A DNA stretch of 64,000 nt from contig NW_008705567.1 in NCBI RefSeq assembly GCF_000186865.1, forward strand, positions 1,501,457 through 1,565,456. The letters are read 5' to 3'. The notes beneath the pieces are model-generated. The model was given only the letters and a program-made list of their open reading frames with translations. It searched no databases and had not been told where the DNA came from. The DNA is from Aureococcus anophagefferens (lineage: Eukaryota; Sar; Pelagophyceae; Pelagomonadales; Pelagomonadaceae). Shown here one piece after another: positions 3,392-26,965 of the stretch (its first letter is position 1; the number at the start of each line of letters is the position of its first letter). The position numbers were made by a program, and so were the translations under genes.

Positions 3392-5090
3392 ATGGCCGGG
3401 GCCCCGCGGCACGGCGTGGGCGACATCGTCGAGGTCCTGGACAGCAGCAGCGGCTGGGTGCCCGCGCGCGTGCTCAGCGTCAACGCCAACGGGTCCTACG
3501 ACGTGAGCGTGCGCCTCGAGGACACGATCCACCTCGGGGACGTGGCCGCGGTCCTGAGCCTCATGTGCAGCGGGTCCCAGTCCGCCAAGGCGTCGGCCGC
3601 GCTCCAGTTCTACACGAGCGAGAGCACGGGCGACCTCACGTTCGCGGGGCTCCGGGCCTACCTCACGTCGGTCTTCAAGGTCATCTTCGAGGCGCAGCCC
3701 GAGCGCCAGTACGCCTACTCGCGGGGCAAGGGCGAGCTGCTGAGCCCGAAGCGCATGGGCGACGCGACGGCGCGCCGCGCGTTCGGCGACCACGGCCTCG
3801 ACCTCGCCGAGGAGCTGGACCTGGAGCAGTTCAAGCGCTGGTACGCCTACCACCTCGACGGCGGCAAGGACGCCGACGACGGCGAGACCGTGGGCACCGT
3901 GGAGCGCGTCCTCGACGAGGACGAGGGCGAGTGGACGGCGGGAGGGCTCGCGACGCGCGCGCTCGCGGGCGTGGACCTCGACGAGGCCTTCGAGCGCCTG
4001 AGCCGCTGGGCCGACGCGCGGGGCCGCGTGAGCCGCGGCGCCTTCGGGGCGGCGCTGGCGGACCTGGCGCACGCGGGCGACGGGTCCGCGAGCCTCGGGG
4101 CCGCGGCGTCCGTGCTCTTCGACGCGTTCGACGTCGACGGCGACGGCACGATCGACTTCGCGGAGCTCGGCGCGGGGCTCTCGGTGCTCTGCGGCGGCGA
4201 CCGCGAGAACAAGGTGCGGTCGACGTTCCGCCTCTTCGACCTCGACGGCGACGGGACCATCGCGTTCGAGGAGATGGCGCGCTACCTCCTCGCGGTCTTC
4301 CGCGTCGCCTTCGCCAAGGACGACACGCTCGCGGAGCGCGTCGGCGCGTCGCCGGAGGCGCTGGCGGAGGCGACGGCGGCGGCGGCCTTCCAGGACTGCG
4401 ACCTCGACGGCGACGGCAAGCTCGACTACGCGGAGTTCCGCCGGTGGTACCACGGCCAGCAGGGCTGGGCGGCCGTCGACTTCGACGCGCTCGTCACGGA
4501 GAAGGACGCCGTGCGCGAGCTCTCCACGGCGCTGCGGGGCCTCGACGCGACGAGCGTCTTCGACCGCCTCGGCTACTTCGCGGACGGCGACGGCAACCAC
4601 ACGCGGCAGCGGTTCTTCGCGGCGTTCGAGGCGCTCTTCGAGCCCCAGGTCGACGCGGCGGGCGACGCGGCGCTGCGGGCCGTGCTCGACAAGGCCTTCG
4701 ACGCCTTCGACGCGGACCACGACGGCGTCGTCGACGCCGCGGAGCTCGCGGCGGGCCTCGGCGCGCTCTGCGGCGGGTCGCGCGTCGACAAGATCCGGCT
4801 GACCTTCGACCTCTTCGACCGCGACCGCGACGGCTACCTCGACGAGTTCGAGATCCGGGCGTACCTCGCGTCGGTCTACAAGGTGTCGACGCACGACCTC
4901 GTGAACAACGACACGGGCGAGCCCGTGTCCGCGGACGAGCTCGCGGCCGCGACGGCCGCTGCGATCCTCGAGGAGGCCGACTCCGACGGCGACGGCCGCG
5001 TGAGCTTCGACGAGTTCGCGCGCTGGGTGAGCTCGGAGCACGTCGAGGAGCTCCCGGGCGAGGAGGAGACGGAGGACGACGACTCGTACT

Positions 5091-9357: not shown

Positions 9358-12300
9358 ATGATGGAGCACCGACGCTCGTTTGCCAGCAAACGAGAGGACA
9401 ACCCATCGAAAACGATGGTGCCAACGGGCCATGCCGCGACGACGCCGGCGCGGCCGCCGTCGGCCGCGCGCGCGCGCGGCTCGCGCAGCGTCGAGGACAA
9501 GGCCAGCGACATCCTGGCCATGGCGCGGAGCCTCGTCGTGGACACGGCGAGCAAGCGCGGCGGCGGCCGGTCGCGCCCGCCGGCCGGCGCGACGACGTCG
9601 AAGAAGCGGCGGCCGGCCTCGGCGAAGCGCGACGGCGGCGGCGGCGACCCGTTGGCGGCGCCCGTCGCGAGCGCGGCCCAGGCCATGAGCCAGCTGCGCC
9701 AGCATCAGTGGAGCTCCGTCACGATGCAGCGCCTCGTGGCCTCGCAGGGCCTCGGCGCCGCCGAGCCGCCGGCGGCCTGGGAGGCGGACGACGACGACGT
9801 GGAGCCCCCGGCGCCCGCCGCGTCCAAGTTCGAGAGGAGCGCGAAGGCGCGCCGCGCGGCGTCGCCGAGGAGGCGCGCGCCCCGGAGCCCGCGGACGCCC
9901 GAGGCCGTCGCGCCGCCCTTCTTCGACCACGACGCGAACCTCGCGCCCGTGTCCTGGCACGCGCTCCACGGCGGCGCGCCCGCGCCGCCGGCGGCGGGCG
10001 CGCCGCCGCCGCGCGACGTCGCGGAGCTGCGCCAGGACTACGACGCGCGGTTCTCCGGCCTCCACGCCTACGGCGCCAGCGGCATGACGCGCCTCGAGGA
10101 GATGGTCGAGGCGGCGATGCAGGCGAGCGAGCGCGCGCACGCCGCGGCCAAGGCCGAGGCGCGCGCGCGGCGCCGGTCGCCGGGCGGCTCGCGCGCGCGG
10201 CCCCACGTCCAGTCGACGCGGTGCGCGGCGCTCCTCGCGCGGTCCGGCGCGCTCCACGTGACCTGCGCGGTCGCGTCGACGACGGACGCGTCCCTCTCCG
10301 TGTCCGCGGAGCGCGCCGCCGTGCTCCGCGCCGTCGCCGACGGCGACTCGGCCTTTTTGGGGCTCGTCGTCGCCGACGCGGCGAGCGACGAGCTGCCCGT
10401 GCCGGACGGCACCGCGCGCCAGGTGTTGGCGGAGTACGGCGACTTTCCCGTGTACCTCGTGAACCGGGACCTGCGCGCGCGGCGCATCACGACGCACGAG
10501 CTGTTCCCGCTGCGGCTGCCGCCGTCGCGCGCGCCGCCGGCGACGCGGCCGCCCATGGAGTCGGCGTTGCCGCCGACGGCGTCGGAGCTCGTCGACGCGT
10601 TCCTCCCTCCGGCGACGGCGCCGCGCGCGACGCGCGCGCTCCACTTCGACACGGAGCGGAGCGCGCGCCCGTCCGCGTTCGAACGGTCGTCGCGGCGGCC
10701 GTCGCGGCGGCCGCCGCCGTCGTCGAGCTCGGGCTCGCGGTCGCGGAGCCGGAGCGCCTCGGACTCGCGCAGCGGCTCGCGGAGCTCGGCGAGCCCCGAG
10801 GCGGCGCCGCCCGTCGCGAGGGCCGAGGCCGCGGCCTGGTCCGTCGACGACGTCGTCGCGTTCGTCGAGGCGACGCTGCGGAAGGACGCCTACTCGGCGA
10901 CGTTCCGCAAGGCCAAGGTCAACGGCGCGCTGCTCCTGCGGCTGGACGCGCGGGACCTCGAGGAGACGCTCGGCGTGGCCCACGGCCTCGACCGGCGGCG
11001 GCTCCAAGGCGCCGTCGCGCGGCTCGCGGAGCGGGGCCACAAAGGCTCGGCGAAGAAGCACGACCGCGCGCTCGGCGGCGACGCGGCCGCCGCGGACGAC
11101 CTCGACGCGTATCTGGGCAGCTTGGACAAGGACCGCGTCCGCGCGGTCGCGCGGCTCAAGGTCGCCTTCGACGCGCGCGCCGAGGGCGGCGAGCAGCCCG
11201 AGGACGGCGCGGACAGCGGCGACGAGGACGCGCGCCTCGACCTCGCCGGCTTCCGGGGCGCGCTCGCGGCGCTCGGGCGCGACCTCAACGCGCCGCACGT
11301 CCGCGAGTACCTCGACGGCGTCGACGGCCGGAGGCGGTTCCTCTTCCTCGACTTCGTCGACGCCTACGTGCTCCTCTTCGCGTCCGAGGACCCGGACCTG
11401 CGCATGTCGACTGGCGCGGCCGCCGCGATCGGCGACCGCGTCCGGCTCCTCAAGGGCGGCCACGTCGCCGTCGGCGGCGGCTCGAGCGACTCCGACGACT
11501 CGCCGCGCGACGCGCGCCGGACCCGGTCGCGCCGCGGCGCGTCGCGGCGCCGGCGCCGCGGGTCGTCGCCGTCGCCGTCCGAGAGCGGCGGCTCGCTCGA
11601 GGGCTGGGCGCCGACGAAGCGATCCTTCGCGGACGCGGCCCGGGCCGCGGACGCGACGCTCGGCAGCGTGCGGCGCCTCGCGGAGCTCAAGCAGAAGTTC
11701 GACCGCTTCGCCGTGGGCGACCGCGTCACGGGCAACGAGGCGCTCCAGGCGCTGACGGAGCTCGGGTCGACGCTGCCGCGGCGCGTCGCCGCGGCGTACT
11801 TCCGCGACCGCGGCTCCAACGGTTTCGCGCGCGACGTGACCTTCTTCGAGTTCCTGCGGGCCTTCGCGGCCCTCGAGCTCGAGGACGGGTCCCGGGAGCC
11901 CAAGCTCGGCCGGTCCCGGAGCCCGTCGTCGTCCGCGGACTCGCGCGCGTCCGTCGACCGCGCCGTCGCGCGCCTCGCGCGCGGCGCCTTCGACAAGCCG
12001 GCCTACAGACGGCCCCTGGAGCCCACGGCGAGGCGCACGCGGCGCCGGGAGCGCGAGCGCCACCACCGCGAGCTCGCGCGGCGCCGCGACCGGAGCGACT
12101 CGGACGACTCGCGCGACCGCCGCGCGTCGCGGCGGCGCCGGAGCCCGAGCCCGGACAGCCCGCCCGCGCGGTCCCGGTCCCGGCGGGCCGCGTTCCGCGC
12201 CGGCGACCGCGTCCGGGCCCAGTACCGCGGCCGGTCCAAGTTCTACCCGGGCAAGGTCGGCAAGGTCCACGCGGACGGCACGCTCGACGTCGACTACGAC

Positions 12301-15300
12301 GACGGCGAGCGCGAGGCGCGCGTGGACCCGGCGCTCGTCGAGAAGCGCGACGACGACTCCGACGACGGCCGGCGGCCGCGGGGCCGGGGCCTCCGCGAGG
12401 GCGCCAAGGTCGAGGCGCGCTACCGCGGCCGCTCCAAGTACTACAAGGGCAAGATCGCGCGCGCGCGCGGCGACGGCACGTTTGACATCGACTACGACGA
12501 CGGCGAGAAGGAGACGCGCGTCCTGGAGGAGTACATCAAGGCCGCCGACTCGGACTCGGACGACGACCGGCGCCGCGGCGGCAAGCTCGCCGTCGGCGAC
12601 AAGGTCGAGGCGCGGTACAAGGGCCGGTCCAAGTTCTACGCGGGCAAGATCGCGCGCGTCCACGCGGACGGGACCTTCGACATCGACTACGACGACGGCG
12701 AGAAGGAGACGCGCGTCGAGGAGCGGCTCATCCGCGCTAAGGAGGGCGGCTCGTCCGGCCGCGGCCGCCTCCGCGAGGGCGCGAAGGTGGAAGCTCGCTA
12801 CCGCGGCCGCTCCAAGTACTACAAGGGCAAGATCGCGCGGGACCGCGGCGACGGGACCTTCGACATCGACTACGACGACGGCGAGAAGGAGACGCGCGTG
12901 CTCGAGGAGTACATCAAGGGCGCGGACTCGGACTCGGACGACGACCGGCGCGGCGGCGACCGGCGCGGCGGCGACCGCCTCAGCGTCGGGGACAAGGTCG
13001 AGGCGCGCTACCGCGGCCGGTCCAAGTACTACCCGGGCAAGATCGCGCGCGTGCACTCCGATGGCACCTTCGACATCGATTACGACGACGGAGAAAAGGA
13101 GCGCAACGTCGACAAAGAGTACGTCAAGTCGACGGGCGGCTCCGGCGGCGGCCGCGGCCGCCTGCGCGAGGGCGCGAAAGTCGAGGCGCGGTACCGGGGC
13201 CGGTCCAAGTACTACAAGGGCAAGATTTCCCGAGATCGCGGCGACGGCACGTTCGACGTCGACTACGACGACGGAGAAAAGGAGACGCGCGTGCTCGAGG
13301 AGTACATCAAGGGCATGGACTCGGACTCCGACGACGACCGGCGCGGCGGGAGCCTGCGCGTCGGCGACAAGGTCGAGGCGCAGTACAAAGGCCGCTCGAA
13401 GAAGTACCCCGGGCAGATCGCGCGCGTTCATTCGGACGGCACCTACGACGTCGACTACGACGACGGCGAGAAGGAGAAGCGCGTCGAGGAGCGGCTCATC
13501 CACAAGCTCGGCGGCGGCTCCTCGAGCCGCGGCCGCCTCCGCGAGGGCGCCAAGGTGGAGGCGCGGTACCGGGGCCGGTCCAAGTACTACAAGGGCAAGA
13601 TTTCCCGAGATCGCGGCGACGGCACGTTCGACATCGATTACGACGACGGCGAGAAGGAGACGCGCGTGCTCGAGGAGTACATCAAGGGCATGGACTCCGA
13701 CGACGAGGACGACCGACGGCGCGGCGGCGACCGCCTCGGCGTCGGGGACAAGGTCGAGGCGCGCTATCGCGGACGGTCCAAGTACTACGCCGGGAAGATC
13801 GCCCGCGTGCACTCGGATGGCACCTTCGACATCGATTACGACGATGGTGAGAAGGAGCGGAACGTCGACAAGGAATACATCAAGTCCATGGGTGGCGGCT
13901 CTTCCAGCCGCGCCCGCCTGCGCGAGGGCGCGAAAGTCGAGGCTCGCTACCGCGGCCGGTCGAAGTACTACAAGGGCAAGATCTCTCGGGCTCGCGGCGA
14001 CGGGACCTTCGACATCGACTACGACGACGGCGAAAAAGAAACGCGCGTGCTCGAGGAGTACATCAAAGCTCTCGGCGGCGGCGGCAGCCGGAGCCCGAGC
14101 CCGAGCCGCGGCCGGCTGCGCGAGGGCGCCAAGGTCGAGGCGCGGTACCGCGGCCGGTCCAAGTTCTACCCGGGCAAGATTTCGCGCGACCGCGGCGACG
14201 GCACGTTCGACATCGACTACGACGACGGCGAGAAGGAGACGCGGGTCCTCGAGGAGTACATCAAGGCCGTCGGAGGCCGCGACCGAAGCCCGAGCCCGGC
14301 CCGCGGGAGCTCGTCTCGGCGCGGGCGCCTGCGCGAGGGCGCGAAGGTGGAAGCTCGCTACCGCGGCCGGTCCAAGTACTACAAGGGCAAGATCTCTCGG
14401 GACCGCGGCGACGGCACGTTTGACATCGACTACGATGATGGCGAGAAGGAGACCCGGGTCTTGGAGGAGTACATCAAGGGCATGGATTCGGACTCGGACG
14501 ACGACCGGCGCGGCGGCGGCAAGCTCGACGTCGGAGACAAGGTCGAGGCGCGCTACCGGGGCCGGTCCAAGTACTACCCCGGGAAGATCGCCCGCGTCCG
14601 CGGCGATGGCACCTTTGATGTCGACTACGACGACGGCGAGAAAGAGACGCGCGTGTTGGAGGAGTACATCAAGTCGACGGGTGGCTCTAGCGGTAGCCGC
14701 GGCCGGCTGCGCGAGGGCGCCAAGGTCGAAGCTCGCTACCGCGGCCGGTCCAAGTACTGCAAGGGCCGTATCGCGCGGGATCGCGGCGACGGGACCTTTG
14801 ACATCGACTACGACGACGGCGAGAAGGAGACGCGCGTGCTCGAGGAGTACATCAAGGGCTTGGACTCTGACGACGACGACCGGCGCTCCGGAGGCAGCCT
14901 CGGCGAGGGCGACAAGGTCGAGGCGCGCTACCGCGGCCGCGAGAAATACTACCCCGGGAAGATCTCGCGCGACCGCGGCGACGGCACCTTCGATATTGCA
15001 TACGACGACGGCGAGCGCGAGACGCGAGTCGAGGAGAAGCTCATCCGCAAGCTCGGCGGCTCCTCCTCGAGCCGCGGCCGCCTGCGCGAGGGCGCGAAAG
15101 TCGAGGCTCGCTACCGCGGCCGGTCGAAGTACTACAAGGGCCGTATCGCGCGGGATCGCGGCGACGGGACCTTTGACATCGACTACGACGACGGCGAGAA
15201 GGAGACGCGCGTGCTCGAGGAGTACATCAAGGGCTTGGACTCTGACGACGACGACCGGCGCTCCGGAGGCAGCCTCGGCGAGGGCGACAAGGTCGAGGCG

Positions 15301-17394
15301 CGCTACCGCGGCCGCGAGAAATACTACCCCGGGAAGATCTCGCGCGACCGCGGCGACGGCACCTTCGATATTGCATACGACGACGGCGAGCGCGAGACGC
15401 GAGTCGAGGAGAAGCTCATCCGCAAGCTCGGCGGCTCCTCCTCGAGCCGCGGCCGCCTGCGCGAGGGCGCGAAAGTCGAGGCTCGCTACCGCGGCCGGTC
15501 GAAGTACTACAAGGGCAAGATCTCTCGGGATCGCGGCGACGGGACCTTCGACATCGACTACGACGACGGCGAGAAGGAGACGCGCGTGCTCGAGGAGTAC
15601 ATCAAAGCTCTCGGCGGCGGCGGGAGCCGGAGCCCGAGCCCGAGCCGCGGCCGGCTGCGCGAGGGCGCCAAGGTCGAGGCGCGGTACCGCGGCCGGTCCA
15701 AGTTCTACCCGGGCAAGATTTCGCGCGACCGAGGCGACGGCACCTTCGACATCGACTACGACGACGGCGAGAAGGAGACGCGGGTCCTCGAGGAGTACAT
15801 CAAGGCCGTCGGAGGCCGCGACAGCAGTCCTGCGCGTGGTCGCCTGCGCGAGGGAGCCAAGGTCGAAGCTCGCTACCGCGGTCGGTCCAAGTACTACAAG
15901 GGCAAGATCTCGCGCGACCGCGGCGACGGCACGTTTGACATCGACTACGATGATGGCGAGAAGGAGACGCGCGTATTGGAGGAGTACATCAAGGGCATGG
16001 ATTCCGACGACGACCGCCGCTCCGGCGGCCGAGGCCGACTGCGGGAAGGCGCCAAGGTTGAGGCGCGCTACCGGGGCCGCTCGAAATACTACCCCGGGCG
16101 CATCGCCCGAGACCGGGGCGACGGGACCTTCGACATCGACTACGATGACGGCGAGAAGGAGACCCGCGTGCTCGAGGAGTACATCAAGGGCGGAGATTCG
16201 GACGACGATCGCGGCTCCTCGAGCCGAGGCCGGCTGCGCGAGGGCGCCAAGGTCGAGGCGCGGTACCGCGGCCGATCGAAGTTCTACCCGGGCAAGATCT
16301 CGCGCGACCGCGGTGATGGCACGTTCGACGTCGATTACGACGACGGCGAGAAGGAGACGCGCGTGCTCGAGGAGTACATCAAGGCCGCGGGCGGCGGCGG
16401 CGACAGCCCGCGCCGAGGTCGCCTGCGCGAGGGCGCCAAGGTCGAGGCGCGCTACCGGGGGCGGTCGAAGTACTGCCCCGGCCGCATCGCGCGGGACAGA
16501 GGCGACGGCACCTTCGACGTCGATTACGACGACGGAGAAAAGGAGACGCGCGTCGTGGAAGAGTACATCAAGGAAGTCGGAGGCCGCGATAGCAGTCCCG
16601 CGCGTGGTCGCCTGCGCGAGGGCGCCAAGGTCGAGGCGCGGTACCGGGGGCGGTCGAAATACTACCCCGGCCGCATCTCCCGAGATCGCGGCGACGGCAC
16701 GTTCGACGTCGACTACGACGACGGCGAGAAGGAGACGCGCGTGCTCGAGGAGTACATCAAGCCCATGGTTTCGCCGCGCGCGGGCGGCGGCCGCGGGAAC
16801 CAGGACGGGTTCACGGTGGGCGAGAAGATCGAGGCCATGTACAAGGGCCGGTCGAAGTGGTACCCCGGCCGCATCTCGCGGGACCGCAACGACGGGACCT
16901 ACGACATCGACTACGACGACGGCGAGCGGGAGACGCGCGTCTCGGAGGAGTACATCCGCTCCGCCGGCGGCACGCGCGTCGGCGACCACCGCGGGAGCCC
17001 GCGCTCGAACCGGCTCCAGGAGGGCGCCAGGGTCGAGGCGCGCTACCGCGGCCGCTCCAAGTACTACCCCGGCCGCATCTCGAGGGACCGGGGCGACGGC
17101 ACCTTCGACATCGACTACGACGACGGCGAGAAGGAGACGCGCGTCTTGGAGGAGTACGTCAAGTCCGCGGGCGGCGGCGGCGACGACGGCGGCGGCGGCA
17201 TGCGCGTCGGCGAGAGCATCGAAGCGCGCTACCGCGGCCGGTCGAAGTACTACCCGGGCAAGATCGGCCGCGTCCACTCCGACGGCACCTTCGACATCGA
17301 CTACGACGACGGCGAGAAGGAGCGCGGCGTCCAGAGGCACCTCATCCGGTCCATGGAGCGGCCGAGCTCCAACGCCATGTCGTCGCTCGATTAA
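9358..17394 (+). CDS. Giant SAM-domain protein with 27 tandem Tudor-like repeats
   Basis: A single uninterrupted exon encodes about 2,678 residues from ATG 9358. An in-frame ATG at 9277 overlaps the start codon of the divergent methyltransferase and is less likely. The N-terminal third is basic and disordered, with a SAM domain at about bases 10834-11030 (WSVDDVVAFVEATL) and EF-hand-like helices. RS/SR-rich linkers precede the repeats. From 12190 the protein consists of 27 units of about 60 residues built on EGAKVEARYRGRSKYYKGKI and DGTFDIDYDDGEKETRV, which is a Tudor-knot/Agenet-like barrel. Linkers alternate between acidic DSDSDDD and Ser/Arg types. Such modules often bind methylated histones or RNA; here the ligand is unknown. 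Confidence 0.85.
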   Translation: MMEHRRSFASKREDNPSKTMVPTGHAATTPARPPSAARARGSRSVEDKASDILAMARSLVVDTASKRGGGRSRPPAGATTSKKRRPASAKRDGGGGDPLAAPVASAAQAMSQLRQHQWSSVTMQRLVASQGLGAAEPPAAWEADDDDVEPPAPAASKFERSAKARRAASPRRRAPRSPRTPEAVAPPFFDHDANLAPVSWHALHGGAPAPPAAGAPPPRDVAELRQDYDARFSGLHAYGASGMTRLEEMVEAAMQASERAHAAAKAEARARRRSPGGSRARPHVQSTRCAALLARSGALHVTCAVASTTDASLSVSAERAAVLRAVADGDSAFLGLVVADAASDELPVPDGTARQVLAEYGDFPVYLVNRDLRARRITTHELFPLRLPPSRAPPATRPPMESALPPTASELVDAFLPPATAPRATRALHFDTERSARPSAFERSSRRPSRRPPPSSSSGSRSRSRSASDSRSGSRSSASPEAAPPVARAEAAAWSVDDVVAFVEATLRKDAYSATFRKAKVNGALLLRLDARDLEETLGVAHGLDRRRLQGAVARLAERGHKGSAKKHDRALGGDAAAADDLDAYLGSLDKDRVRAVARLKVAFDARAEGGEQPEDGADSGDEDARLDLAGFRGALAALGRDLNAPHVREYLDGVDGRRRFLFLDFVDAYVLLFASEDPDLRMSTGAAAAIGDRVRLLKGGHVAVGGGSSDSDDSPRDARRTRSRRGASRRRRRGSSPSPSESGGSLEGWAPTKRSFADAARAADATLGSVRRLAELKQKFDRFAVGDRVTGNEALQALTELGSTLPRRVAAAYFRDRGSNGFARDVTFFEFLRAFAALELEDGSREPKLGRSRSPSSSADSRASVDRAVARLARGAFDKPAYRRPLEPTARRTRRRERERHHRELARRRDRSDSDDSRDRRASRRRRSPSPDSPPARSRSRRAAFRAGDRVRAQYRGRSKFYPGKVGKVHADGTLDVDYDDGEREARVDPALVEKRDDDSDDGRRPRGRGLREGAKVEARYRGRSKYYKGKIARARGDGTFDIDYDDGEKETRVLEEYIKAADSDSDDDRRRGGKLAVGDKVEARYKGRSKFYAGKIARVHADGTFDIDYDDGEKETRVEERLIRAKEGGSSGRGRLREGAKVEARYRGRSKYYKGKIARDRGDGTFDIDYDDGEKETRVLEEYIKGADSDSDDDRRGGDRRGGDRLSVGDKVEARYRGRSKYYPGKIARVHSDGTFDIDYDDGEKERNVDKEYVKSTGGSGGGRGRLREGAKVEARYRGRSKYYKGKISRDRGDGTFDVDYDDGEKETRVLEEYIKGMDSDSDDDRRGGSLRVGDKVEAQYKGRSKKYPGQIARVHSDGTYDVDYDDGEKEKRVEERLIHKLGGGSSSRGRLREGAKVEARYRGRSKYYKGKISRDRGDGTFDIDYDDGEKETRVLEEYIKGMDSDDEDDRRRGGDRLGVGDKVEARYRGRSKYYAGKIARVHSDGTFDIDYDDGEKERNVDKEYIKSMGGGSSSRARLREGAKVEARYRGRSKYYKGKISRARGDGTFDIDYDDGEKETRVLEEYIKALGGGGSRSPSPSRGRLREGAKVEARYRGRSKFYPGKISRDRGDGTFDIDYDDGEKETRVLEEYIKAVGGRDRSPSPARGSSSRRGRLREGAKVEARYRGRSKYYKGKISRDRGDGTFDIDYDDGEKETRVLEEYIKGMDSDSDDDRRGGGKLDVGDKVEARYRGRSKYYPGKIARVRGDGTFDVDYDDGEKETRVLEEYIKSTGGSSGSRGRLREGAKVEARYRGRSKYCKGRIARDRGDGTFDIDYDDGEKETRVLEEYIKGLDSDDDDRRSGGSLGEGDKVEARYRGREKYYPGKISRDRGDGTFDIAYDDGERETRVEEKLIRKLGGSSSSRGRLREGAKVEARYRGRSKYYKGRIARDRGDGTFDIDYDDGEKETRVLEEYIKGLDSDDDDRRSGGSLGEGDKVEARYRGREKYYPGKISRDRGDGTFDIAYDDGERETRVEEKLIRKLGGSSSSRGRLREGAKVEARYRGRSKYYKGKISRDRGDGTFDIDYDDGEKETRVLEEYIKALGGGGSRSPSPSRGRLREGAKVEARYRGRSKFYPGKISRDRGDGTFDIDYDDGEKETRVLEEYIKAVGGRDSSPARGRLREGAKVEARYRGRSKYYKGKISRDRGDGTFDIDYDDGEKETRVLEEYIKGMDSDDDRRSGGRGRLREGAKVEARYRGRSKYYPGRIARDRGDGTFDIDYDDGEKETRVLEEYIKGGDSDDDRGSSSRGRLREGAKVEARYRGRSKFYPGKISRDRGDGTFDVDYDDGEKETRVLEEYIKAAGGGGDSPRRGRLREGAKVEARYRGRSKYCPGRIARDRGDGTFDVDYDDGEKETRVVEEYIKEVGGRDSSPARGRLREGAKVEARYRGRSKYYPGRISRDRGDGTFDVDYDDGEKETRVLEEYIKPMVSPRAGGGRGNQDGFTVGEKIEAMYKGRSKWYPGRISRDRNDGTYDIDYDDGERETRVSEEYIRSAGGTRVGDHRGSPRSNRLQEGARVEARYRGRSKYYPGRISRDRGDGTFDIDYDDGEKETRVLEEYVKSAGGGGDDGGGGMRVGESIEARYRGRSKYYPGKIGRVHSDGTFDIDYDDGEKERGVQRHLIRSMERPSSNAMSSLD
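12190..17360 (+). repeat. Coding tandem repeat array, 27 Tudor-like units
   Basis: Units of about 180-210 bp differ mainly in their linkers. Many alternate as A/B pairs (EGAKVEARY and VGDKVEARY types). A block of two units at about 14706-15080 recurs almost base for base 375 bp further on, including the variants DIAYDDGE and GREKYYPG. This marks a very recent in-frame duplication. The array is prone to copy-number change and assembly collapse. Confidence 0.95.
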
Positions 17395-17396
17395 AC

Positions 17397-18620
17397 TTAG
17401 TTGTGTTGTTTTCGCCGTTTCCGGGGCTCCGCGGGAGCGTCCGGCGCCGGGACCTCGCGCTCGCGCCGCCGCGGCGGCTCGTCCTCCTCGCCGACGCGCG
17501 CGGCGCAGCCGCACGCGACCAGGTCGACGAGCGGCGCGGTCGAGGCCGGGTCGAAGTCGACGACGGTCAAGCGGACGGCGTGGCGCGTGCCGACGCGCGA
17601 GAACGGGTAGGCGAGCTCCCTCGCGTCGCCGGCGCCGCGCGCGGCCTCCGCCGGCCGCGCCGCCGCGGCGCCGGTCCGGAACGCCGCGAGTCCCGGGCGG
17701 CTCATCTTCCCCAGGGCCGCCGCGGGGAACTCGCGCACGCCCGACGGCCGGTGGTCGAGCCAGCAGTTGACGAGGAACGTCACGCGCCGCTCCGCCGCGG
17801 GGGACCGCCGGAGATCGAGCCTGCGTGGAATTCAACCGCTGGTTTGGGTGGTCCTGACCAAACTTCTCTAGCTCGGTCAAATCGACGTCGATTCGGCTGA
17901 TGTTTGGACGAATCGATTGCTCTCATTGAGTTCTCGAAGCACAGCAGAAAAACTCGCGTCGACACGGTCGCATACGCGCACATTGAAGTCGGGTTGAAGA
18001 TTTGAATTCCACGCGGGATCGAGCGGCGCGCCGTGGAGCTTCCGGCCGTCGAAGCAGAGGTGGTTCCCGCGCGCCGGGTAGCACGCCGCGCCCTCGCCGA
18101 TGGGCTCGTCGGAGATGGCGCCCGTGAACGAGTCGGGCCGCCGGTCGAGGACGACCGTCGGCGCGCCGCCGTCCGTGAGATAGGTGACGGTCGACAGCTG
18201 CGGGAAGACGTAGAAGCCGTGGAGCGCGTGCGCGCGCTCGTCCTTGTCCCAGTGGAAGCAGACCTGCTTCGCGTCGTCGGCGCCCGCCGTCGGGTCCTTG
18301 ACCTGGACCCACCACTCCGCGCCCGACCGCGCCGCGCGCGCGAACGGGGACGCGCCGCAGTGGCGCTCGAAGACCGCGAGCGCGAGCGCCTCGAGCGCGC
18401 AGCGCGGCGCCGCGGCCGCGCCGATCCAGAACGTGTCCTGCGTGATCAGCGGCGAGTTGGCCAGGGCGCAGTCCCGCAGGAGCTCCCCGTGTTGTGTGTC
18501 GTCGAGCTGCAGCGCGCCTTCGAGGCACCGCGTGCCCAGGTCGAGGTCCGCGGTCGTGCCTTCGATGGTGCCGTCGTGCGCGAGGTTGACGAAGAAGTCG
18601 TCGTCGAGGCAGTCGTCCAT
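17397..18620 (-). CDS. 2OG-Fe(II) oxygenase-like protein, two exons
   Basis: Exon 1 is 18620-18025 and exon 2 is 17820-17397, giving 339 residues. Iron ligands are visible as HWD in VCFHWDKDE and His in GRKLHGAP. The Arg of RRVTFLVNCWLDHRP, just after the splice junction, fits the 2OG-binding position, so the intron splits the catalytic core and must be removed. The start MDDCLDDDFFVNL at 18620 is preferred; the upstream frame runs into a minisatellite. The intron is an inverted-repeat element unrelated in sequence to the 191-bp family. The gene ends two bases from the Tudor-repeat gene. Substrate is unknown. Confidence 0.8.
17821..18015 (-). mobile_element. Introner-like element of a second family (195 bp) in the 2OG oxygenase gene
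   Basis: The two ends carry the perfect 13-bp inverted repeat GCGTGGAATTCAA (bases 17823-17835 on the plus strand, complement near 18003-18015). Read on the coding strand, GCTCGATCC precedes the element and GCTCGATCT follows it, an 8-of-9 direct repeat. The intron is 17821-18024 (204 bp), with a GC donor in the first target copy and a CAG acceptor at the element end. It is AT-richer than the flanks and has no coding capacity. It has no interior similarity to the 191-bp elements. Confidence 0.88.
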
Positions 18621-23462: not shown

Positions 23463-25369
23463 CTACGACTCCCCCCGCTGCCTGGGCGGGAAGCGCGCCC
23501 CGACGTCCCAGAGGGCGATCTTCTGGTCCTTGGAGCCCGTGACCAGCAGCCGCGAGTCGTCGGAGAAGTCGAGCGCGTTGACCGCGGCGTCGTGGTACTT
23601 GAGCACGGCGAGGGGCTTGAACTTGGGCGCCTTGGCGGAGAAGAGGCGCACGCGGAAGTCCCAGCCCGCGGTCGCCAAGACCCTCCCGTCGGGCCGGAGC
23701 GCGAGCTGGCCGATGCCCTCCTTGCGGTCGACCTCCTCGACGGCCTCGCAGCTCACGGGCAGGCCGATGTCGTGGCGCGGCCGCAGCGCGCCCGGCGCGA
23801 GGGCGAAGGCGCGCGCGGCCGTCTCGACGCCGCCCGCGAACATGACCGTGCCCTCGCGGTTCACGTCGAGGCCCATGAGCGGGCTCTTGAAGACGTTCCG
23901 CGGCGTCACGCTCCAGGGCCGCGGCCGCAGCGCCGTCAGGTCCCAGGCCATGACCGACCCGTTCTCGTAGCCCACGAGCGCGAGGGGCGGCGTGCCGGAC
24001 CTGGGCAGGACAAGAGAGATTCAACGTCGTTTCAACGTGAGTGTTCCGCGCGCGCGCGTCCCGTAAAAAGCATCCGCGCTTCGAGACGGTTCCAAGAGAT
24101 GATCGCTCGTCCAAAAATCAGCCAAAACGAGTGGAAAACGGCCGAGATATGAGGCTTTGAAGTTTGGAATTTCGCTCTCTCGTCCTGCCCTGTGCCGGAC
24201 GCGCAGCCGCCGTAGGGCAGCCAGAGCTTCGCGGACATGGCCATGCCAATGACGGGACTGTCGCCCGCGCGGACCTTGCTCCGGTCGCCGCCGTCGGGCT
24301 GGAACCGCAGGGCCGGCCGATCGCAGCGCGTGTCCCACAACACCATGGCCTCGGGCGGCTCCGTGGGCGCGAGCACGAGGTGCCGCGGCGCGCCCGCTTT
24401 CCCCGACCAGTGCGCGGCGACCGCGGCCTCGCGCCACTCGTCGTCCGCGGCCCGGGCCTCCGCCTGCCAAGCATGACGGTAACGTTTTCTCGTCGTTTTC
24501 ACGCCCCAAATCTCTCGAAAATCGTCGCGCCCACAGGACGCTGGCCTCCGCCGCCGACGCCGCGTCGTCGTCGGCGTCTAACGTCGCGCCGATGCCGCCG
24601 GCGGGCTTCGCGCGCGGCGGCGGCGGCGGCGGCGGCGACGGCGGGGCCGGGGGTTCGTAGACGTAGGCGCAGTCGGACCGCTTCGCGACCTGGGCGGGTG
24701 AGCGTCAACTTGAGCGTTCCGCGCGCGCGCGTTCCGGAAAAAAAGCATTCACGCTTCGAGAGATGATCGCGAGGTGGCCCCGCAGCGCGAACTCCGGCTC
24801 GCTCGTCCAAAAATCAGCCGAAACGGGTGGAAACCGGCCGGAAAAAAAGCATTCACGCTTCGAGAGATGATCGCGAGGTGGCCCCGCAGCGCGAACTCCG
24901 GCTCGCTCGTCCAAAAATCAGCCGAAACGGGTGGAAACCGGCCGAGAGAGAAGTTGGGAATGTCGCGCCCTTTTCCCGCCCCGGTCGCGACGGCGCAGCG
25001 CGTGAAGAAGTAGCTGTCCGTGAAGAGCGTCCGCGCCAGGGCGTCCTCGGGCTTGGCGCCGCCGGCGAGGCGGTCGAGGTCCCAGAGCCGGATGCGGCCG
25101 TCGCGGTGCTGCGTGAGCAGGCTCTCGCCGCCTCCGTGCTCGTGCGTCTCGAGGACGCCCTGGTCCGACGCGCTCCAGGACGCGACGGGCCGCCGCGCGC
25201 TCAGGCTCCAGAGCTTCGCCACGCCGCTCGTGTCGCCCGACGCCACGAGCTGCTGGTCGCCGGCCGCGACGAAGCGCACGCAGCTGATGGCCGCGAGGTG
25301 GCCCCGCAGCGCGAACTCCGGCTCCGGCGGGGAGTCGTGGAGGCGCTGGACGTGCTCGTAGCCCGCCAT
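23463..25369 (-). CDS. GNB1L: WD40 protein GNB1L / ASTRA-associated Asa1 homologue, four exons
   Basis: Exons are 25369-24992, 24689-24552, 24463-24201 and 24000-23463, totalling 438 residues with all phases consistent. The WD40 propeller begins with EPEFALRGHLAAISCVRF and ends with LATAGWDFRVRLF, PLAVLKYHDAAVNALDF and VTGSKDQKIALWD, closely following human GNB1L. In yeast the orthologue Asa1 belongs to the ASTRA/TTT assembly of PIKK kinases. Introns 1 and 3 are introner elements; intron 2 is a short intron flanked by a 9-bp repeat. A Pro-rich low-complexity insert lies in exon 2. Confidence 0.9.
24001..24191 (-). mobile_element. Introner element (191 bp) forming GNB1L intron 3
   Basis: The ends read CTGGGCAGGACAAGAGAG and CTCTCTCGTCCTGCCCT on the plus strand, a near-perfect inverted repeat. 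The 9-bp GTGCCGGAC flanks it on both sides (23992-24000 and 24192-24200). The intron is 24001-24200, exactly 200 bp. On the coding strand the GT donor is the start of the target copy GTCCGGCAC and the AG acceptor is at the element end. The interior is in the opposite orientation relative to transcription from the BBS2 copy. Confidence 0.93.
24464..24551 (-). other. GNB1L intron 2, 88 bp with 9-bp direct repeats (possible short introner)
   Basis: On the coding strand GCGGAGGCC occurs at the donor (24551-24543) and again immediately after the CAG acceptor (24463-24455). The 79 bases between have no obvious terminal inverted repeat. Splicing GC-AG joins DAASA to EARAADDEW in frame, which the reading frames require. 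The arrangement matches the introner rule, so this may be a decayed or different short element. Confidence 0.75.
24690..24982 (-). mobile_element. Enlarged introner element (293 bp) forming GNB1L intron 1, with captured host exon sequence
   Basis: Ends CTGGGCGGGTGAG and TTTTCCCGCCCCG are diverged versions of the family inverted repeat. Flanks CTTCGCGAC (24681-24689) and GGTCGCGAC (24983-24991) match at 7 of 9 bases. The intron is 24690-24991 with a GT donor. The interior holds a perfect 104-bp tandem duplication, and each unit carries 33 bases identical to GNB1L exon 1 (around 25294-25326) inserted at the conserved GATCGC/TCGTCC point of the element. Confidence 0.88.
24738..24945. repeat. Perfect 104-bp tandem duplication inside an introner
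   Basis: Two units run 24738-24841 and 24842-24945 and appear identical. Each starts with seven A residues followed by GCATTCACGCTTCGAGAG and ends AAACCGGCCG. The absence of differences implies a young event. Each unit contains the captured GNB1L exon piece. Confidence 0.92.
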
Positions 25370-25614: not shown

Positions 25615-26965
25615 ATGCGCGTCTCCGTCGTGAGCGGCATCGCCTCGCTGCTGCCCACGGTGCAGAAGGAGCTCTCGCGCTACCCGGCCCTCGCCGGCGT
25701 GGAGCTCGTGGCCCTGGCGCCCGAGGACTGCGTGGCCGGCAACGCGGCGTGGGCGCGCGAGAGCAGGGTCGTCCTCGCGGACCCGGGCCTCGTCGCGGGG
25801 CCGCCGCTCGCCGCGTGCCGCTCGCTCGAGTGGCTCCAGTCGACGTGGGCGGGCGTCAACGCCCTCGCCGGCGGGCGCAGCGACTTTGCGTGCACGAAGC
25901 TCAGCGGCTGTTTCGGCCCGCTCATCGCCGAGCACGTCTTCGCGCACGTGCTCCGCGTCGAGCGGCGCGTCGACGAGTAGGAGAGCCCGGGCGGCGAAAG
26001 GGTGATTCATGAGTGTTCCGCGCGCGATCGTCCAAGAGAAAGCATCCACACTTCAAGAGCGATAATCGCCCGTCCAAAGATTAGTCGAAAAACGACCGAG
26101 ATTGGGAGTTTCGCACCCTTTTTCCATGCCCAGATCGAGCTGTTTCGGCCACGCCAGCGGGGGTCCTTCGCAGGCTGCGCGCGGCGGAGACGACGGCCAC
26201 CTGGGCCCACGGCGACTTCGCGGCGGCCGCGCGGCCGCTCGGGTCCCTCACGCTCGGCGTGCTCGGCGCGGGCGACATCGGCCAGCACGCGCGCGAACGG
26301 CGCGGAATCTTTGGGGGGGCGAGAGCCGGTGGTTTGGGGAGCGCGCCTCCGAGAGCCGAGAGCCGGTGGTTTGGGGAGACGCGCCGTTCGTCCGTCCCCC
26401 CAAAAACGAGGGCCCTCGGCGACTTTCGCGGCGACGTTCGGCGGTTTCGGCGCGACGTCCTCCCCGCGCCGCCGCGCCGCAGGTCGCGGGCGTCGCCAAG
26501 GCCTTTGGCATGCGGACCCTGGGCTGGGCCCGCGACGGCGGGCCGCGGCGCCACTTCGACGCGACGACGCGCGACGTCGATTCCGTGCTCGCGGACTGCG
26601 ACGTTCTCGTCTCCGCGCTGCCGTCCACGGCGGCGACGCGGGGCCTCCTGGGCGGCGGGCGCCTCGCGGCCTGCGGCCGGAGCCCGCTGTTTCTCAACGT
26701 GGGCCGCGGCGACCTGCTCGGCGAGGACGACGTCCTCGCCGCGCTCGCGGCGGGCCACGTCCGCGAGGCGGTCTTGGACGTCTTCGCCGAGGAGCCGCTG
26801 TCGGCGGACTCGCCGCTCTGGGCGTCGCCGGGGGTGCGAGTGACGCCCCACGTCGCCGCGCTGAGCCTGCCCGCCGATGTTGCTGTCGTTTTCTGCGACA
26901 ACCTGGATCGGTGGACGCGCGGGGAGGAGCTGCGGTATGTCGTGGACTGGGAGAAGGGGTACTAG
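25615..26965 (+). CDS. GhrA-like glyoxylate/hydroxypyruvate reductase (D-isomer 2-hydroxyacid dehydrogenase)
   Basis: Exons are 25615-25976, 26174-26288 and 26483-26965, giving 319 residues (E. coli GhrA has 312). The NAD(P)-binding Rossmann motif GVLGAGDIGQH crosses into VAGVAKAFGMRTLGW after the second intron. Catalytic residues are the Arg in NVGRGDLL, the Glu in FAEEPLSADSPLW and the His in VTPHVAAL. The ending VDWEKGY matches the GhrA subgroup. It likely reduces glyoxylate or hydroxypyruvate, relevant to photorespiration, but the compartment is not evident. Intron 1 is GT-AG and intron 2 is GC-AG by frame. Confidence 0.88.
25985..26130 (+). mobile_element. Decayed introner element inside intron 1 of the GhrA-like gene
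   Basis: Bases from GGGCGGCGAAAGGGTGATTC to CACCCTTTTCCATGCCCAG keep the family ends, and the interior keeps GAGTGTTCCGCGCGCG, AAAGCATCCACACTTC and GAAAAACGACCGAGATTGGG in the same order as the intact copies. It is about 45 bp shorter and more diverged. The functional splice sites (donor GTAGGA at 25977, acceptor CAG at 26171-26173) now lie outside the original ends, and no clean target duplication remains. Confidence 0.8.
26289..26482 (+). other. Intron 2 of the GhrA-like gene (194 bp), with internal direct repeat
   Basis: The frame requires joining GDIGQH to VAGVAKAF, giving a GC donor (GCGCGCGAAC) and a CAG acceptor at 26480-26482. The interior carries a direct repeat of AGAGCCGGTGGTTTGGGGAG (near 26325-26344 and 26360-26379). 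It has no similarity to the 191-bp introner and no clear 9-bp target repeat. Confidence 0.75.

Follow-up and report, generated by a model that had tools for sequence, protein, structure and literature searches.

A chimeric introner in intron 1 of an Aureococcus anophagefferens WD40 gene carries a duplicated stretch matching the gene's own exon 1, probably acquired by templated repair

The locus and its features

The DNA considered here is a stretch of 64,000 nucleotides of Aureococcus anophagefferens (assembly GCF_000186865.1, contig NW_008705567.1, positions 1,501,457 to 1,565,456 of the forward strand), referred to below as the window. It contains, on the minus strand and with its translation start at 25369, a gene for a WD40 protein with homologues in pelagophytes (55% identity in an unclassified member of Pelagophyceae and 46% in Pelagophyceae sp. 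CCMP2097). The first intron of this gene consists of a rearranged introner of a large family, here called family A, together with one copy of its target-site duplication, and inside this introner a block identical to part of exon 1 of the same gene stands twice. The features that matter for the argument are as follows.

24992..25369, minus strand: exon 1 of the WD40 gene, start codon 25369-25367
24690..24991, minus strand: intron 1 of the WD40 gene, GT..AG, 302 bp, placed by a splice-site scan and by comparison of the spliced protein with its relative P0001
24734..24837, plus strand: first 104-bp tandem unit (element, exon block, element), defined by sequence identity
24838..24941, plus strand: second 104-bp tandem unit, identical to the first, with CCG at the tandem join common to both parents
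24768..24800, plus strand: captured exon-1 block, copy 1, 33 bp, microhomology CGC on the left and TC on the right
24872..24904, plus strand: captured exon-1 block, copy 2, 33 bp, in the host frame in gene sense (..SEPEFALRGHLA..)
25292..25324, plus strand: donor stretch in exon 1, whose minus strand encodes EPEFALRGHLA
24683..24689, no strand: left copy of the target-site duplication TCGCGAC, located by sequence
24985..24991, no strand: right copy of TCGCGAC, which provides the minus-strand GT donor

The predicted spliced protein reads ..FTRCAVA|KRSDCAYVYEPP.. and agrees with ..FTRCAVAKSSDCDYVYEPP.. in P0001, a 96%-identical relative that represents the corresponding joined protein across the intron 1 site in a comparison made at the protein level.

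The introner family and the focal copy

The uninterrupted core of family A, represented by a 24-mer, has 1032 and 1001, that is 2,033, matches with at most two mismatches in the 49.05 Mb assembly of 86 contigs, to which all genome-wide searches refer; the reversed control pattern has none. The family consensus was built from 72 distinct sampled copies scoring above 140 bits, a sample tilted to intact copies as most loci were picked through best matches or exact cores, and, at 95.6 and 97.8 bits, both fragments of the focal element fall under this cut. The consensus starts with CTGGGCAGGAAAAG, ends with CTTTTCCTGCCC and has terminal inverted repeats of 12 bp. Of 67 sampled copies, 48 have direct repeats of at least 7 bp, mostly 8 or 9 bp, at their ends, in a search zone that overlapped the element by 2 bases, and the focal copy has an exact target-site duplication of 7 bp. 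With its many copies, its target-site duplication and its inverted repeats the focal element is an introner of the terminal-inverted-repeat type. It also forms an intron with GT..AG borders, and a second family-A copy within the same WD40 gene fits as intron 3, the splice check covering these two copies.

Compared with the consensus, the left terminal inverted repeat of the focal copy is shortened, 11 bp are deleted in a stretch of CGAGA repeats and 9 bp are deleted near the right end. The last change is not special to this copy: the same 9-bp deletion is found in 7 other rows of the 92 aligned and an 8-bp deletion in 3 rows. Among the 14 best matches listed for the focal element the first is the locus L004, which is 78% identical. 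A pattern made for the 11-bp deletion without the insert has three matches with 2-3 mismatches (L072-L074), none of which stands among those 14 as a candidate progenitor. Elsewhere, at L024 2247-2393, lies a family-A introner that matches up to model position 145 only and then passes into GC-rich sequence.

The captured exon block

A maximal exact match of 33 bp unites positions 24768-24800, 24872-24904 and 25292-25324, all on the plus strand, and the opposite strand of the window has no copy of it. The intronic blocks lie 387 and 491 bp from the exon copy, stand in the same orientation as the gene transcript and derive from sequence wholly inside one exon. They are inserted where other family copies read GATCGC-TCGTCC. 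In the exon, the encoded peptide EPEFALRGHLA is also present in the proteins P0001 and P0003, and in related but altered form in P0005, P0008 and P0014; P0004 has a different N-terminus. Because this peptide is conserved in relatives and element sequence surrounds the intronic block, the exon is likely the source and the intronic block the derived copy. Since both 104-bp units hold the insert, we infer that the capture came before the tandem duplication. No mismatch separates unit from unit or block from exon, which suggests that both events are recent, although 104 and 33 bases make a weak clock.

The block is confined to this gene. Its 31-mer core has three matches in the genome with at most three mismatches, all in the WD40 gene. 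A gap of 8-38 bp at the insertion site, sought between exact anchors, was found twice, both times in the focal copy; the same anchors stand at normal spacing in 43 of 67 sampled copies. With the block seen in no other gene and the gap in no other copy, the capture most likely arose in situ and, judged by these matches, did not spread within this genome. Searches of three further element stretches with exact anchors, which stand at normal spacing in 15, 28 and 7 of the 67 copies, gave no insertion of about 12-44 bp. Such exact-anchor searches may miss rarer variants and diverged copies. The largest single insertion in the 72 sampled copies, which lean to the intact, is 4 bp. A doubled exact 16-base core was found with a spacer of 60-90 bases in the focal copy only, with a spacer of 91-121 bases in none and with a spacer of 29-59 bases in one other copy, L075. 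Within these limited searches, captures of this kind appear to be rare. The copy L075 has, at 1457-1591, an imperfect tandem duplication of 67-68 bp with units one base apart in length and with no exon block.

The first-pass annotation of this DNA is borne out in these respects, the gene that it called GNB1L being recognised here as one for a WD40 protein. It had described a chimeric introner with a host-exon block and two identical tandem units, which the 33-bp identity and the 104-bp units confirm; the span that it gave is exactly the minus-strand GT..AG intron, and its distance of about 500 bp to exon 1, in the same orientation, agrees with the gaps measured. The order that it proposed, capture and then tandem duplication, fits the presence of the insert in both units. 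The search of the genome for the same insert, which it had advised, returned a block unique to one gene and points to the local origin that it foresaw for this outcome.

Junctions and proposed mechanism

Both junctions can be read to the base. On the left the element extends through GATGATCGC and shares CGC with the block (3-bp microhomology); on the right it resumes at TCGCTCGTCC, with an overlap of TC (2-bp microhomology). The TCGC of the element is present on either side of the block as a 4-bp repeat, and the net gain is 32 bp. The donor bases to the left of the block, GATGGCCGC, match the GATGATCGC of the element imperfectly, at 7 of 9 positions. When junctions were drawn at random between one family copy and the donor region, an overlap of at least 3 bp had a frequency of 0.019 and one of at least 2 bp a frequency of 0.072. 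Two marks of repair-mediated duplication are found here: a single other source, which lies nearby, and microhomology at the junctions together with the 4-bp repeat of the element.

The reading that we favour, with a probability of roughly 0.8, is that exon 1 of this gene served as template for an insertion while a break or fork was being repaired, and that a separate 104-bp tandem duplication followed. It is favoured because the donor is near, the microhomologies are of 2-3 bp, the primer end is imperfect, the acceptor shows a repeat and a second join of 3 bp is present. A broken end or stalled fork would have arisen inside the resident introner, and its 3' end, ..GATGATCGC, may have annealed at CGC to the gene's exon 1, within the 7-of-9 match to donor GATGGCCGC. 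A further 30 bases would then have been copied from exon 1, and the strand would have returned to the element by pairing at TC, so that the element's TCGC came to stand on either side. At a later time the chimeric element would have undergone the 104-bp tandem duplication joined at CCG. The pathway may have been theta-type end joining, synthesis-dependent gap filling or microhomology-mediated break-induced replication (MMBIR). Local repair by template switching had been named as one possible route by the first-pass annotation, and the confinement of the block to its gene and the junction microhomologies speak for it. Matches to A-family polymerases lie at two places of the genome. The piece in L070 is about as close to DNA polymerase theta (1e-28) as to DNA polymerase I (9.4e-28) and polymerase nu (1.3e-26), and its identity as the DNA polymerase theta (Pol theta) of this host was not established.

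Several considerations weigh against templated repair or lessen its force. The microhomologies, at 2-3 bp, are short, and a 2-bp overlap by itself is not improbable. The repair pathway is not readable from sequence, and both the allele history and the number of units are seen through a single assembly. Recurrence of the process in these elements was not seen in the three other stretches examined with exact anchors. Finally, 257 of 2853 random windows of 302 bp, drawn with the focal region omitted, have a same-strand exact match of at least 33 bp within 1 kb.

These matches are clustered: in bins of 500 bp they fall at 12.0-17.5, 18.5, 48.5-49.5, 54.0-55.5, 56.5 and 57.5 kb as well as in the focal bins. 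When pairs of at least 30 bp, more than 150 bp apart, were filtered for complexity, those in the window outside the focal case belonged only to an array at 12.2-17.3 kb or to a pair at 28.5/30.0 kb; some pairs of this sort are present in the neighbouring stretches L067 and L068 too. Local exact repeats are therefore not rare in the window, but they stem from a few repeat-rich stretches, and the focal case stands apart as an element of many copies, elsewhere uninterrupted, that is broken by exon sequence. Given the base composition of the window a 33-base match at one pair of positions has p ~1.7e-18, and by this estimate a chance origin of the identity is rejected, the empirical control with random windows being less clean. 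The array itself, at 12222-17330, is a long one with many exact copies of 30-54 bp, and in L068, the stretch to the left of the window, a 33-bp exact direct repeat occurs at 1720-1752 and 3700-3732, 1980 bp apart.

Alternative explanations

Two alternatives, both unlikely and about equally so, survive best. In the first the break would have been patched from the gene's own transcript and not from exon DNA. The block has the same sense as the transcript and comes from within a single exon, and RNA-mediated end-joining repair has been described (PMC11390984); nevertheless nothing in the block demands RNA, and no exon junction is crossed. The second is an artefact of assembly or library, giving a wrong count of units or a chimeric sequence. 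Identical tandem units are a usual place for miscounting and the assembly sequence stands alone, but 49 Mb in 86 contigs would suggest a long-read assembly, and a block of a neighbouring exon placed inside an introner in both units is not readily produced in this way.

Much less credible is the capture of the exon at an earlier time or elsewhere, with subsequent movement of the introner as a Pack-type element. The family does have terminal inverted repeats, target-site duplications and many copies; however, one gene supplies both donor and acceptor, and the focal copy has a shortened left inverted repeat. The confinement of the 31-mer core to one gene in the whole assembly speaks strongly against a mobilised Pack-type element, which is rejected. 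A Pack-TIR would have its host sequence between two terminal inverted repeats (TIRs); here the host block is present and the left repeat is shortened. A multicopy Pack-TIR mobilised with its cargo is not what is seen, with no copy outside this gene in the assembly. The likeness to Pack-type transposons that the first-pass annotation had drawn stands in one part, the resemblance to single-copy, transposition-independent Pack-TIRs (PMC8277862), and is not supported for mobilised cargo, as no second copy was found and the repeat is shortened. Equally hard to credit is ectopic gene conversion between exon and intron, the other route that the annotation had offered: gene, orientation and identical tract would suit it, yet it is rejected on the structure of the junctions, where element and exon share exactly 3 and 2 bp at the edges and 32 bp were added without replacement of homologous sequence.

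Consequences for the gene

The whole chimera is predicted to be removed by splicing, and no effect on the protein is expected because the intron is predicted to splice as before. On retention of the intron, translation would pass through the exon-1-proximal block in the host frame (SEPEFALRGHLAII vs EPEFALRGHLAAI) and meet a stop after 80 intron codons. Nothing indicates mobility or a function of the chimera, even though one of its blocks is in that frame.

On the favoured reading of templated repair, an introner that serves as an intron would still change by microhomology-driven repair and could acquire coding sequence from the gene in which it lies. All junctions are readable, which makes the case a clean example. 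If such captures were common, the thousands of similar introners in a genome would form a natural assay for templated insertion. A broader proposition, that introners are hot spots of repair in genes, copy nearby exon sequence into introns and supply raw material for exon duplication, is regarded as improbable.

Other introns and elements nearby

Intron 2 of the WD40 gene was modelled at 24464-24539, where alternative splice choices are possible; with this model the protein has 4 residues more than P0001 at that place. Two copies of the 9-bp GGCCTCCGC flank it, at 24455-24463 and 24543-24551. Because one introner family of Aureococcus is reported to add 12 bp to the transcript (PMC9860276), intron 2 may represent another introner family that brings both splice sites. 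Upstream of the WD40 start codon and outside the gene, at 25988-26125, lies a diverged family-A introner with an internal deletion (85.3 bits). A second, related introner family, of the GTGTGGAAATCAAATCTTCAACCC type, has a match at 17858-17998 on the minus strand and at several other loci.

Comparison with known systems

Published introners, those of Aureococcus included, occur, like family A, as sets of similar introns marked by inverted repeats and by target-site duplications, which measure 8 bp in the Aureococcus example (PMC9860276). The focal copy differs by its capture of host exon, of which nothing was seen in that source, whose main text does not use 'chimeri' and has 'captur' once, in another sense. 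In repeated fungal introns microhomology-mediated deletion, not exon capture, is described (PMC8469720), and no exon capture by an introner was found in searches of an open-licence library.

Templated insertions are known at P-element breaks repaired by Pol theta end joining in flies (PMC2895639), and imperfect microhomology is frequent at templated insertions made by MMBIR in human genomes (PMC8421209). The present block resembles both in its short tract, nearby template and (imperfect) microhomology; those pathways were seen in flies and human genomes, whereas here the likeness comes from sequence alone.

Another known group is that of the single-copy Pack-TIRs, which have mostly nearby donors and a median microhomology of 2 bp and are ascribed to transposition-independent gap filling (PMC8277862). 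They share with the focal introner host sequence within an inverted-repeat element, a nearby donor, microhomology, occurrence as a single copy and internal breakpoints. Unlike them, the block here is far below the match-score cut-off of 100 used for that set, the acceptor is a spliced intron and the left repeat is shortened.

Repair-mediated duplications were surveyed in vertebrate genomes, where 1,136 transposable elements are interrupted by sequence with one other location, the donor being within 5 kb in all but 312 (PMC2671141). A single nearby source and an interrupted element are found here as well, but the survey took interruptions of at least 50 bp, and in the present case the block has 33 bp and the acceptor is an introner. 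The same paper records, for the gene ACSBG2, an intron that holds a copy of an entire exon of that gene; the copy is inverted, whereas the block described here keeps the orientation of the gene and was followed by tandem duplication. It can be said that the event is of a known kind and mechanistically ordinary, and that it is the acceptor, an introner, which is unusual.
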